NCBI RefSeq assembly: GCF_026339955.1
Contig: NZ_JAPEPW010000001.1
Location: forward strand, 3,064,501-3,128,500
Direction of reading: 5' to 3'
Length of the DNA stretch: 64,000 nucleotides
Source of the DNA: Streptomyces sp. NBC_01549
GTDB lineage: Bacteria; Actinomycetota; Actinomycetes; Streptomycetales; Streptomycetaceae
Shown here: in pieces, positions 31,875-43,833 of the stretch
Numbering within the stretch: the stretch's first letter is position 1
How the letters are laid out: every line of letters starts with the position of its first letter
Position numbers and translations under genes: made by a program
Notes under the pieces: generated by a model
Told to the model about the DNA's origin: nothing
What the model saw: the letters and a program-made list of their open reading frames with translations, nothing else
Database searches by the model: none

Positions 31875-32946
31875 ATGCGACGACCCAGGCCCCACGAGCC
31901 GACCATAACCCCAGGTGAGCCTGCGGCTCTCTACTGCCGGATATCCCAGGCGGACGAACGACGACCAGACCGGCGTCGATCGGCAGGAACGCATCTGCCG
32001 GGAGATCGCCGAGCGTAGGGGGCTCACGATCGACCCTGCCCACGTCTTCGTGGACAACAGCCGGTCGGCGTGGAGCCGGGGGCGGAAGAGGCCGGGTTGG
32101 GACCAGCTTCTCGAACGCGCCCAGCGCCGCGAGTTCCGGCACGTCATCGCGTACCACCCGGACCGCCTGATGCGGCAGCCCAGGGACCTGGAGGAGCTGC
32201 TCCAGGTCTCGGACGAGCACCAGATCATGCTGCACGGCGAGGCGAACCGGCGGGATCTGTCGGACCCCGACGACCGGTTCATCCTGCGGATCGAGGTCGC
32301 CCATGCCTGCCGGTCGTCCGACGACACCTCGCGGCGGCTGAAGTCGGCGCTGAAGGAGCGTGCCGAGAACGGTCTGCCGCACTCGGGCAAGCGCCGCTTC
32401 GGATACGAGATGGACGGCGTGACCATCAAGGAGGACGAGGCCGAGATCGTCCGAGAGGTCTTCGACCGCTACCTCAAGGGCCAGAGCCCGAGCGCGATCG
32501 CGCTGGTCCTCCACAAGCGCGGCATCAAGACCGTGTACAGCAAGGAGTGGTCGCAGGGCACGGTCCGCGCGCTCCTCGACTCCCGCCACGTCGTCGGCAT
32601 CCGTATGCACCAAGGCGCGGAGGTCGGGCCGGGCAAGTGGCCCGCGATCATCGACCGGGGCACCTGGGAGGAGACCCGGGCCCGGCGTGAGTACCGCTCC
32701 GCGATCCACCAGACCAACCTGGAGCTGCGCCGCTTCTATCTGCTGCGCGGCCTGGTCATGTGCTCGCGCTGCGGCACGCTCATGTCCGGCACGAAGGTCG
32801 GCGCCGTGCCCTCCTACCTGTGCACGCGCAAGAGTCGCAACGGCGACAAGAAGTGCGTGCGGCGCATCGCCGCGGTGAAGCTGGAGGAGTTCTGGCCGTC
32901 GCCAGCCACGTACGCGGGCTGCTCACCTACCTTTTCCCTCTCGTGA
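31875..32946 (+). pseudogene. Large serine recombinase (integrase), frameshifted and 3'-truncated
   Basis: From the ATG at 31875, the frame encodes the catalytic ALYCRIS segment (Ser at 31944-31946), then loses register at about 31956. The rest (DDQTGVDRQERICREIAE, a recombinase domain, and zinc-ribbon CSRCGTLMSG) is in the +1 frame. Omitting G31956 restores a continuous QADNDDQTGVD. A GTG at 31915 could start the second frame but yields a protein without the serine. The C-terminus stops soon after KLEEF where DUF2637 sequence begins, a deletion joint near 32,893. The normal length is 450-550 residues. Confidence 0.85.
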
Positions 32947-33608: not shown

Positions 33609-33883
33609 GCGCAGAACGCCAGGGTGCCGCCGCCGACCCGCTCCTGGGGCTGCGCTTCTTCGCCCGAACCACGCCAACCTCCAAGGGCCGCCCCGTCGCC
33701 GCCTCTCGCGGCCTTCGCAGAGCCGACTCCGGCTCAGCCGTCCCCGGCTCCACGGCCACGAGTACGGCCCGCATCCCGCACGACTCCATGGAGACGAACC
33801 CCAATGCACGACGGACACCACGAACTCCCCATGCCCCAGCAGGCGATGACCACCACCCCAGCCACGAGCGCAGCAAGCTGTAG
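33605..33883 (+). CDS. Small hypothetical protein coupled to DUF2637
   Basis: A 92-residue frame starting with ATG overlapping the DUF2637 stop (ATGA). It includes DPLLGLRFFARTTPTSKG, then a low-complexity Arg/Ser/Pro tail, and overlaps mobC by 80 bp. No domain recognised. Its translational coupling is the main support; it may not be real. Confidence 0.35.
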   Translation: MSAERQGAAADPLLGLRFFARTTPTSKGRPVAASRGLRRADSGSAVPGSTATSTARIPHDSMETNPNARRTPRTPHAPAGDDHHPSHERSKL

Positions 33884-34373
33884 CGATGGACCGTCCAAGG
33901 GCCGGTCCATCGCGCTTGCCTCCGCCCCGGGGGTGGCGGAGGAGGGCCCACACCAGGAGGCGCGGGACCCGGAAGCCCCGGCCGAGGGCGGCCGGGTGCA
34001 GAAGGGGAAGCGGCCGGCCCGTCGCCGTTCCCGCCAGGACAAGCAGCGCGGCAAGCGACAGACCTTCCGCGCCAGCGAGAGCGAGGCCGCTCAGATCGAC
34101 GCCGCCGCCGAGGCCAAGGGCATCTCCAAGGCCCGCTTCATCGCCCAGGCCGTCCACGCCGAACTCCACGGCCGCCCCCGGCTCGACCAGGACGGCGCCC
34201 TCGACCGCCTCGACGCCGCTCGCGTCCAGCTCGCCCGCGTCGGCAACAACCTCAACCAGATCGCCAAGATCGTGGACTCCGGCGGCGACGCCATCCACCT
34301 CCAGCGCACCCTCGACGACATCCGCCAAGCCGCCACGACCGTCAAGGCCACCGCCCAGAAGCTGGTGAGCTGA
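33804..34373 (+). CDS. MobC-like relaxosome accessory protein
   Basis: A 189-residue protein with a C-terminal ribbon-helix-helix MobC domain: TFRASESEAAQIDAAAEAKG, KARFIAQAVHAEL, and the diagnostic LARVGNNLNQIAKIVDSGGD. The N-terminal half is Pro/Arg/Lys-rich. MobC proteins bind oriT and help the relaxase nick. It lies 5 bp upstream of the relaxase gene. GGAG precedes the ATG by 10 bases. This gene looks intact although its relaxase partner is broken. Confidence 0.85.
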   Translation: MHDGHHELPMPQQAMTTTPATSAASCSDGPSKGRSIALASAPGVAEEGPHQEARDPEAPAEGGRVQKGKRPARRRSRQDKQRGKRQTFRASESEAAQIDAAAEAKGISKARFIAQAVHAELHGRPRLDQDGALDRLDAARVQLARVGNNLNQIAKIVDSGGDAIHLQRTLDDIRQAATTVKATAQKLVS

Positions 34374-34378
34374 ACCCC

Positions 34379-36313
34379 TTGGTCCCCGACGTCTCCCGCG
34401 GCAGCCGCACCATCGGTCTGCTCCACTACCTCTACCGAACCAGCGACATCGAAGCCCACGTCGACCCGCACATCGTCGCCGCCTACGACCCCTTCGTCCT
34501 CGACCCCGGCCGCCACCCCGACGCCACCTTCACCGGCCTCGCCGCCGACCTCGACCAGTGGGTCAACGCCCTCGGCGACAAGGCCCCCGCCAAGCACGTA
34601 TGGCACTGCCCCGTCCGCACCGCGCCCGGCGACCGCCACCTCAGCGACGACGAGTGGGCCACCGTCGCCCGCCGCGTCCTCAACGCCACCGGCATCGCGC
34701 CCGAAGGCGACGACGAAGCCTGCCGGTGGATTGCCGTGCGCCACGCCCCCGACCACATCCACATCGTCGCCACCCTCGTCCGCGCTGACCGCACCCGCCC
34801 CCGCCACCACAAGGACGGCACCCGCGCACAGGCCGAATGCCGCAAGATCGAGAAGGACTTCGGCCTGCGCCGCCTCAAGGAAGGCGACGGCACCGCTGCC
34901 AAACGCCCCACCAGCGCCGAACGCCACAAGGCCGAAGGGTGCAGATCTTTTGAGGGTGTCTGGCACGAGCGTGACCTGCGGGTTCGTGATCCAGCAGGGC
35001 TACGCCGTGTCAGTTACGCCCGGCCGTACGGCGCCGACGCGGATCAACGGGTGCTGTGAGAGACAGACGGGCAGGTCGGCCGCGATGGGCTTCGTGGGAC
35101 GATGAACTCGATCCGTACAAAACCGCAGGTGGGCCAGACCCTCAAAAGATCTGCACTCAAGGCCGAACGCCTCGGCCAGGAAGATGCCTCCCGCGAGCTG
35201 CTGCGCGAACACGTCCACCGCGCTCTGGCCGGGGCAGCCGACGAGGCCGAGTTCTTCGACCGGCTCGCAGCCGAAGGCGTACGCATCAACAAGCGCATCG
35301 CCCCGTCCGGCGATGTCCTGGGCTACAAGGTCGCAATCGTCGGTGACCGCAACGGCGACCAGGAACCCATCTGGTTCGCAGGCTCCACACTCGCGCCGGA
35401 CCTGTCCCTGCCCAAGATCCGCAAACGGTTCACGCACACCGCCGCCGAGGCCGAACATCCCACCCCTGCAACGCCCGTCGGCAGGTCGGCGCCCGCCCGG
35501 GCCCGCCTCTTCGCCGCCGAGGTCACCGAGGACGTCCTGGTGGCGATGGTCTCCGCCGACGACGGGACGGTCGCGGCCCACATGAAGGGGGTCGGTGAGG
35601 TCCTCGACGCGCTCGCCCAGACCTCGCCCGGTCATACTGGCACCGAACTACGAGACGCCGCGCGGTATTTCGAGCGCGCCACCCGCTCCCACATCCAGGC
35701 CCGGGATGCTGAGATGCAGGCCCTGCGCCGCGCGGCCCGTCAGATCGTCCACTCCGGCCCCGCCCTCGGCCGCGGCGCGGACGGAACCGCCGCCGCCATG
35801 GTTCTGGACGTCCTGCTCCTGGCCGCCATGGCCGCCGCCCGCTGGTATGCCGCCCGCGGCCACGCCCAGCAGGCCGAAGCCTCCCAACGCACCGCCGAAC
35901 ACCTCCGCGCCGCCTACAGCGCGGCGGCCCAAGCGCCCATGGCGGTCATGCACGCGAACGGCCAGAGCCTGCCCGCTCCGCTGCAGCGCAGGCACGCGCG
36001 GTCAGTCCTGTCCGTGCTGCCGACGGAGGTGGCCCGACGGCTCCAGGACGAGCCGGGCTGGCCCGCCCTGGCCGCCAGCCTCCACGAGGCGGAACAGGCC
36101 AGCCGCAACGCCGCCGCACTCCTGAAGCAAGCAGTCGACTTTCGCGAACTGTCCACAGCGGAGTCCGTCAGCGATGTCCTCATCTGGCGGCTCAGGCGGC
36201 TTGCGGACCTTCCCGCCCCGATCGCCGCACCTCATCAGCCTGACCAGCGCCCTGCCGCTGCTGCCGCACCGACCCTTCCGCAGCCGAGTCAGGCACCAAC
36301 GCGCCGACGGTAG
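34379..36313 (+). pseudogene. MobA/VirD2-like relaxase interrupted by a MITE
   Basis: The first segment (34379-34936) encodes a relaxase N-terminus with the HUH-type metal motif RHAPDHIHIVATL. The second (35158-36313) continues in the same frame (ERLGQEDASRELLREHVHRALAG...) with a long helical C-terminus. Removing the 221-bp insertion and one 10-bp duplicated target restores HKAERLGQED and a protein of about 567 residues, a normal length for the family. The insertion carries an in-frame TGA at 35057-35059, so only a 226-residue fragment is made. A start in the insertion (35102) could express the C-terminal part. Confidence 0.88.
34937..35157. mobile_element. 221-bp MITE-like insertion with inverted ends
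   Basis: The left end (from 34939) reads GTGCAGATCTTTTGAGGGT, and the reverse complement of the right end (to about 35156) reads the same, followed by (GT)CTGGC. The 10-bp direct repeat CAAGGCCGAA flanks it (34927-34936 and 35158-35167). Too small for a transposase, so it must be moved in trans. Confidence 0.88.
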
Positions 36314-42359: not shown

Positions 42360-43833
42360 GGGAGTGTCATGAATTAGGTGGGAACTTCACCGGAAGGGAC
42401 ACCTGATGACGATCCAGAAGACTCACTCTCTCGAGACGGTGGGCGGCGTGTCGCTTGCCACTGACGGGGCGGCCGCGGACGGTGCGGGCATGAGGAGAAC
42501 GCAGGAGTCCGTGGACGGGCTGGGCCTGGACCTGCTGGACGCGCTGACGCTGCTGGCCCAGGACAGGGTCCGCGGTGGTGGGCTGAGGCTGGTCGGTGAG
42601 GACGGTCTGCTGCCCGCGATCACGCAGCACCTGATGCAGGCCGCCCTGGAGGCCGAGCTGGATGAGCATCTGGCCGCCGAGGCCGAGCGCGGCGGCGGGC
42701 GGGGCTCGCGTTCGGGCGGCAACGGCCGTAACGGGTATCGCACGAAGAAGGTGATGAGTGAGGTCGGGCCGATCACGCTGCAGATCCCCCGTGACCGGCT
42801 GGGCACTTTCCGGCCCCGCATCCTGCCCAAGGGTGCCCGTCGCACCGGTGCTCTGGACGAGATGGTGCTCTCGCTGACCGCCCGCGGCATGACCTCCGGG
42901 GAGATCGTCGCGCACCTTGAGGAGGTGTACGGGATGAAGACGTCCAAGGAGACGATCTCCACGATCACCGACAAGGCCCTGGACTCGATGAACGAGTGGC
43001 GCACCCGCCCGCTCGACGCGGTCTACCCGGTCGTCTTCGTCGACGCCATCCACGTCAAGATCAGGGACGGGCAGGTCGCCAACAGGCCGATCTACGTGGC
43101 CATCGCGGTCACCGCCGACGGCTACCGCGATATCCTCGGCCTGTGGGCCGGCGACGGTGGCGAGGGCGCCAAGTTCTGGCAGCAAGTCCTCACCGACCTG
43201 CGTAATCGCGGGGTCAGAGACGTCCTCATGCTCGTCTGTGACGGGCTGTCCGCTCTGCCGGACGCGGTCGCGAACGTGTGGCCCCAAACCGTTGTGCAGC
43301 GCTGCGTCGTTCACCTGATCCGGCAGAGCCTGCGCTACGCCTCCCGGCGGGACTGGCCCGAGGTCGCCGCCGACCTCAAGCCCGTCTACACCGCCGTCAA
43401 CGAGGCCCAGGCCCGCGAGCGGCTCGACGAGTTCGACGCCAAGTGGGGCCACAAATACGGCTCGATCGCCACCGTCTGGCAGCGCGCCTGGAGCGAGTTC
43501 GTACCCTTCCTGGCCTTCCCCGACTCCATCCGCGAGGTCGTCTACACGACCAACAGCATCGAGTCCCTCAACGCCCGCTACCGCCGCGCGGCCACCGCCT
43601 GCGGACACTTCCCCAACGAACAGGCAGCACTCAAGAGGATCTACCTGGCCACCCTCGCCCTCGACCCCTCCGGCCGGGGACGCAAACGCTGGAACAACAA
43701 GTGGAAGGCAGCATTGAACGAGTTCGACCAGCTCTTCGACGGCCGCCTTACCGCCGGACGGGTATAAGCCAGTCGGACCAACCAAAAACCACTAGGCCAA
43801 AGGGCCTAAAAACACCTAAATCATGATAGACCC
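42360..43833. mobile_element. IS256-family insertion sequence (1474 bp)
   Basis: Left end GGGAGTG then TCATGAATTAGGTG; the reverse complement of the right end gives GGGTCTA then TCATGATTTAGGTG, matching at 17 of 21 positions. CAGAACCC flanks both sides (42352-42359 and 43834-43841) as an 8-bp target duplication. One intact transposase gene lies inside. Confidence 0.93.
42406..43767 (+). CDS. IS256-family transposase
   Basis: A 453-residue DDE transposase. The catalytic Asp candidates are in VVFVDAIHVKI (about 211) and VCDGLSALPDA (about 277), and the Glu in YTTNSIESLNARYRR (about 385), the IS256 signature. A zinc-free N-terminal region with Gly-rich ERGGGRGSRSGGNGRNGYRTKK is typical. The frame is complete and the ends are well preserved, so the element may still be active. 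Confidence 0.95.
   Translation: MTIQKTHSLETVGGVSLATDGAAADGAGMRRTQESVDGLGLDLLDALTLLAQDRVRGGGLRLVGEDGLLPAITQHLMQAALEAELDEHLAAEAERGGGRGSRSGGNGRNGYRTKKVMSEVGPITLQIPRDRLGTFRPRILPKGARRTGALDEMVLSLTARGMTSGEIVAHLEEVYGMKTSKETISTITDKALDSMNEWRTRPLDAVYPVVFVDAIHVKIRDGQVANRPIYVAIAVTADGYRDILGLWAGDGGEGAKFWQQVLTDLRNRGVRDVLMLVCDGLSALPDAVANVWPQTVVQRCVVHLIRQSLRYASRRDWPEVAADLKPVYTAVNEAQARERLDEFDAKWGHKYGSIATVWQRAWSEFVPFLAFPDSIREVVYTTNSIESLNARYRRAATACGHFPNEQAALKRIYLATLALDPSGRGRKRWNNKWKAALNEFDQLFDGRLTAGRV

Follow-up and report, generated by a model that had tools for sequence, protein, structure and literature searches.

A relaxase gene of Streptomyces sp. NBC_01549 is interrupted by a MITE with ISKra4-type ends

The window analyzed here, a stretch of 64,000 nucleotides from Streptomyces sp. 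NBC_01549, contains a relaxase gene on the plus strand that is split into two fragments by a short insert. The N-terminal fragment (34379..35059) comprises 186 relaxase residues and a 40-residue tail encoded by the insert, 226 residues in all, and ends with the TGA at 35057-35059 that the first-pass annotation had pointed out together with the open frame on both sides of the insert. Residues 67-163 of this fragment match positions 38-132 (of 132) of the PF03432 profile, and the motif RHAxDHIH is kept in 12 of 12 sequences. The C-terminal fragment (35159..36313) is open for 384 codons and, when read from an ATG at 35102 within the insert, forms a 403-residue frame. Directly before the relaxase in gene order is a gene for a mobilisation accessory protein that is NikA-like and has a MobC match (33624..34373, plus strand), and upstream of that is a serine recombinase gene (31915..32946, plus strand) that perhaps belongs to the same integrated mobilisable element. 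With these two neighbors, the locus resembles an integrated mobilisable element. The window also has an IS256-family element (42360..43833, plus strand).

The insert is a MITE without a transposase gene (34937..35158, plus strand; 222 bp), as delimited by its inverted ends, a second copy and an alignment of 11 copies. Its two arms, 34939-34957 and 35138-35156, are 19 nt long and 100% complementary, and they form the only inverted 19-mer pair less than 600 bp apart in the window, no such pair having occurred in 20 first-order Markov windows. Two additional bases outside each arm extend them to 21-bp terminal inverted repeats (left, 34937..34957, plus strand; right, 35138..35158, minus strand) that are paired at 20 of 21 positions, the single mismatch being G34938 against T35157. 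The base homologous to 35157 is C in all ten other aligned copies, indicating that T35157 is the derived base, and therefore that the locus consists of a 222-bp element with a 9-bp duplication instead of 221 bp with a 10-bp duplication, as had been annotated. Thus, the insert reported in the relaxase gene is real and its 19-nt arms are as described, but its boundaries required correction, whereas the total added length of 231 bp, a multiple of three, is unchanged. We rejected the 10-bp duplication since the other perfect duplications are of 9 bp and a single changed end base, along with a chance C, accounts for the shift. At 222 bp the element, whose forward frames were translated across the aligned copies, is too short to encode a transposase; short length, terminal inverted repeats and no transposase are all features of a MITE.

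The two copies of the target duplication, AAGGCCGAA, are at 34928..34936 and 35159..35167 (plus strand). The empty site was examined using the relaxase pieces that flank the MITE as separate queries, the relatives being 11 loci (L164-L174) with the best genus-wide matches to the N-terminal piece, own genome aside. The closest of these has 95% identity in the N-terminal piece and 83% in the C-terminal piece. The relaxase was uninterrupted in all 11, with contiguous N- and C-terminal matches that overlap by exactly 9 nt, corresponding to the duplicated KAE codons, and the target sequence is accordingly single at the empty site. Among plasmid records, seven were common to the best 15 of 281 and the best 15 of 94 matches, and each of the seven has the 9-nt overlap. 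The contiguous gene in the relatives and a near-identical second copy having its own duplication support the original proposal of a MITE insertion into the relaxase gene. A lack of further copies and of any matching IS in Streptomyces would have refuted the first-pass annotation, but further copies and an IS with closely matching ends were both found. Perfect 9-bp duplications were present in eight of the 21 elements examined and absent from 13: they flank five of nine solitary MITE copies, one of two intact composites, one of three sister-subfamily MITEs and one of six ISKra4-type ISs with both ends located. The first base of all eight is A, which makes up 15% of the window, when the duplications are read in the orientation of the window copy; the five that have T as their last base begin with A on both strands.

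The second copy is on a different contig of the same genome (12.6 Mb in 15 contigs) at C9:859587-859808 (L012 2088-2309). It is identical to the window copy over 220 of 220 aligned bases and differs from it only at base 221 of 222. Its ends are GGGTGCAG...CTGCACCC and AATGCGAAA on both sides represents its own 9-bp duplication. This copy sits where a glutamate-synthase-like frame (PF01645) of the opposite strand has its 5' end, and the listed ORF starts inside the MITE. The presence of several copies per genome is also a MITE feature, although the NBC_01549 genome has only two of this subfamily. A scan of genome contigs for the exact 19-bp end, which possibly did not include the records of the window's own genome, identified 13 stretches, eight in Actinacidiphila oryziradicis, four in A. 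soli and one in Streptomyces sp. NBC_01669. When up to three mismatches were allowed there were 17 end sites in A. oryziradicis (G392; a count that includes composites and single ends), eight in A. soli, three in Streptomyces sp. NBC_01669 and one in another genome (G057), versus none for the reversed control. Nine two-ended solitary copies were compared: the window copy, the second copy, L041, L044, L047, L049, L051, L052 and L079. Perfect 9-bp duplications flank the first two and L049, L051 and L079, while the other four match at 3 to 6 of 9 bases. Eight full-length copies are 222-224 bp. The one-ended L045, L048, L053 and L021 were omitted from the solitary-copy count, as was L050, a MITE with 8 of 9 matching duplication bases and part of a composite alongside.

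Outside these genomes the family appears sparse. A search with the whole element of 392 Streptomyces genomes produced matches at E<=0.001 in 20, in 18 of which the match was 59 bp or less and was dropped as chance. Besides G000, the only match longer than a short piece was in G057 (91% over 179 bp), where one end is damaged and the other was not found. The 19-bp end with up to two mismatches was found at 24 places in 14 of the 392 genomes, compared with one place in one genome for the reversed control. Those in G203, G084, G251 and G254, together with one of the two in G175, are without the outer GGG and look like chance; like others, they had no partner end within four mismatches in the fetched flank. 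Phage records had no match to the element and plasmid records had one, of 98 bases at 91%. A sister subfamily, recognizable by its TTCTGAGGGT ends, has one copy in the NBC_01549 genome itself (C11:200178-200411) and further copies in G209 and G025, of which only the G025 copy has a perfect duplication. Its members (L013 1979-2212, L156 1072-1304 and L157 1026-1257) are 232-234 bp, and a subterminal GACCTGCG motif, noted by eye, is common to them and the window element.

The first-pass annotation had also stated that no transposase with matching ends is in the window, and the likely partner does lie elsewhere. Most likely it is a transposase of the ISKra4 family of the Mutator superfamily. The NBC_01549 genome has four matches to this transposase family, three of which are over the cut-off, including a 516-residue protein that scores 299.6 bits against NF033572 (transpos_ISKra4; cut-off 205). 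MITE-like ends adjoin two of those three genes, and the third copy has ends that are GGGTGC-type but otherwise, by eye, clearly different. A complete IS of 2186 bp in another Streptomyces, G062 (L154 1487-3672), has a transposase that is 91% identical to the NBC_01549 protein, ends GGGTGCAGATCTTCTGAGGGT and GGGTGCAGATCCAATGAGGGT, and a perfect 9-bp duplication, ATCCTTGAT. The MITE end is identical to the ends of this IS at 20 of 21 bases (the left repeat against one end) and 18 of 21 bases, and at 19 of 21 to the remaining end of an IS at C9:436 kb of the NBC_01549 genome. That nearest own-genome copy (C9:434530-436074) is without its first ~169 bp, and a complete-looking copy at C9:266020-268213 has three mismatches per end, no duplication and a transposase in two frames. 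None of the complete ISKra4-family ISs found has ends identical to those of the MITE; the G062 IS, with one and three mismatches, is the best candidate for the partner judged from these sequences. The similarity between MITE and ISs ends after ~25 bp and their cores are unrelated, which indicates that the MITE did not arise by simple internal deletion from any of these ISs.

According to PMC3942029, the inverted repeats of prokaryotic Mutator-type elements, among them ISKra4, are 18-39 bp long and their duplications 8 or 9 bp, and the 9-bp duplications reported here are consistent with that. Besides the inexact ends, the unrelated cores and the defects of the own-genome relatives, two further observations count against the assignment: a perfect duplication is absent from five of the six ISKra4-type ISs with both ends, and the window insertion is inside a coding sequence, whereas PMC3942029 and PMC9208149 report for several ISKra4-group elements a preference for positions preceding sigma-A promoters or at 50-250 bp from genes. 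On balance, we estimate a probability of roughly 0.9 that the insert is a non-autonomous ISKra4-group MITE whose ~21-bp GGGTGCAGATCTTNTGAGGGT ends are recognized by a transposase provided in trans that makes a 9-bp staggered cut. An ISKra4-family transposase would act on those ends, the MITE would insert by the staggered cut, apparently at A-initial sites. In the window the insertion has split the relaxase gene. The structure of the element, its near-identical second copy, the 9-bp duplications, the uninterrupted gene in relatives and the agreement of a complete ISKra4-family IS in ends and duplication length are observed directly; the mobilization in trans and the identity of the transposase responsible are what we infer.

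Other explanations were considered for the origin of the insert. Possibly the MITE was moved by the abundant IS256-family transposase of this genome. IS256 is likewise a Mutator-type family with local elements starting GGG, 31 matches to it occur in the genome, 12 of them above the cut-off, and PMC3942029 gives duplication lengths of 8 or 9 bp for the superfamily as a whole. However, the ends of the window IS256 (GGGAGTGTCATGAATTAGG...) differ from those of the MITE, as had been noted initially: they are GGGAGTGTCATGAATTAGGTG / GGGTCTATCATGATTTAGGTG, and all eight near-identical copies of this element in the genome, of which the window copy is one, have 8-bp duplications. A MITE-like end with up to five mismatches was absent at 29 of 30 IS256 loci scanned, the sole exception (L188, C15) being an ISKra4-type end fragment directly beside an IS256. 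IS256 was therefore rejected both as partner and as the parent family, the ends not matching, and we regard its involvement as highly improbable. At the C15 site (L017 3053 / L188 2680), where the end fragment abuts the IS256 copy, no ISKra4 transposase gene was matched. Still harder to sustain is a reading of the insert as a structured RNA gene or functional palindrome instead of a transposable element. Compared with shuffles, the whole strand does fold very much better (RNA, z -5.7; DNA, z -5.1; 0 of 200 shuffles in each case), and among the 39 inner pairs predicted there are three in which one or more of nine copies have both bases changed. Without the 21-bp ends, however, the inner 180 bases fold ordinarily (z -1.09; 30 of 200 shuffles equally good), showing that the strong fold of the whole element comes from its ends. 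In addition, the covariation term is only -1.07, Rfam gave nothing at gathering score (the lone match up to E=1 had 15.3 bits versus 38.3 required), and target duplications demonstrate transposition. A conserved RNA was rejected given the fold, covariation and Rfam results.

A different question is whether the insertion is adaptive or regulatory, either through a working split relaxase composed of the nuclease domain and a protein started at ATG 35102, or through precise excision that restores the gene. In its favor, the PF03432 match with its conserved motif is wholly inside the first fragment (67-163 of 186), the downstream frame is open, and the frame is preserved by the 231 added bp. The annotated combination of a retained frame and a stop codon is factually correct but has no particular significance, as the second copy, located elsewhere, has the identical TGA, which means that the stop arrived with the element rather than arising afterwards. 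As the full-length copies are 222-224 bp, retention of the frame had about a one-in-three chance, and open frames are expected after a recent insertion without selection. The start proposed at 35102 does open the 403-residue frame and expression of the C-terminus from it is possible, although no support for this was found. A scan of 34800-35300 detected no sigma-70-like promoter, a result of little weight as shuffled DNA this rich in G+C is expected to give 0.0 sites, and visual inspection revealed no well-spaced ribosome-binding site for 35102. An ATG is at the 35102 position in ten of 11 aligned copies, within the conserved end region. The right end also has one terminator-like site, on the minus strand (35170-35153), which is no more than chance would give (shuffle mean 0.4). 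Expression of the C-terminus, which is unproven, is not needed to explain anything, and we consider an adaptive or regulatory role unlikely. The event is a recent, ordinary MITE insertion causing insertional inactivation. The nuclease domain of a relaxase alone may still nick DNA, but would lack portions that efficient transfer requires. The matched nuclease domain is retained in the first ORF and the C-terminal part is lost, so that the mobilisable element is probably transfer-defective, making it an example of such an element probably losing transfer through a single recent insertion.

Relatives of the MITE in Actinacidiphila form composites. In A. oryziradicis a 1270-bp unit (L042 2804-4073) has 143-bp inverted ends that are 97% alike, with a 204-bp MITE on one side, a MITE end on the other, no transposase and a perfect duplication, AGGTTCGAT. 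Its passenger is a 218-residue frame with a start that by eye is lipoprotein-like, and which had no Pfam match when scanned minus its first residue. A second intact composite in A. oryziradicis (L043 465-1739) has a duplication matching at 8 of 9 bases, while the A. soli copy (L048) is incomplete and shortened. Potentially, these composites reflect a previously undescribed ISKra4-dependent MITE family that spreads through the Streptomycetaceae and builds composite gene cassettes, a broader proposal for which we see about even odds. The family is of a known kind, but may itself be undescribed: our literature search found no account of an ISKra4-type MITE or of such MITEs in Streptomyces, an absence that is unproven as ISfinder, supplements and most subscription journals were outside its scope. 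What this analysis adds is a likely family for the partner, precise ends, a target pattern and the composite relatives. With the first three of these, the copies in Streptomycetaceae can be annotated and can serve as markers for recent insertions.

The IS256 element in the window is like the MITE in belonging to the Mutator superfamily and having a GGG end, yet differs in its inverted repeats and 8-bp duplications. The ISKra4-family (p-MULT 4) ISs of PMC3942029 share with it GGGTGCAGATCT... ends and 9-bp duplications, and 20 of 21 end bases are those of the complete Streptomyces member; those ISs are ~2.19 kb, however, whereas the MITE has 222 bp, no transposase gene and no similarity past ~25 bp of the end, and it interrupts a gene instead of lying upstream of a promoter as reported there. 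According to that paper, four ISKra4 elements carry extra genes beside the transposase, unlike the Actinacidiphila composites, which have no transposase. Another parallel is in the TIMEs and TIME-COMP elements, the Tn3-family MITEs and composites outlined in PMC4133298, which are likewise miniature elements moved in trans. Transposition has been shown for TIMEs, and for our MITE it is deduced; TIMEs and TIME-COMPs belong to the Tn3 family with 5-bp duplications and 38-bp ends, compared with the ISKra4-type ends and 9 bp reported here. The TIME-COMP layout of a MITE relative bounding a passenger gene, with a target duplication, is that of the 1.27-kb Actinacidiphila composite, and if the broader proposal is true these units would be the first ISKra4-type counterparts of TIME-COMP elements.
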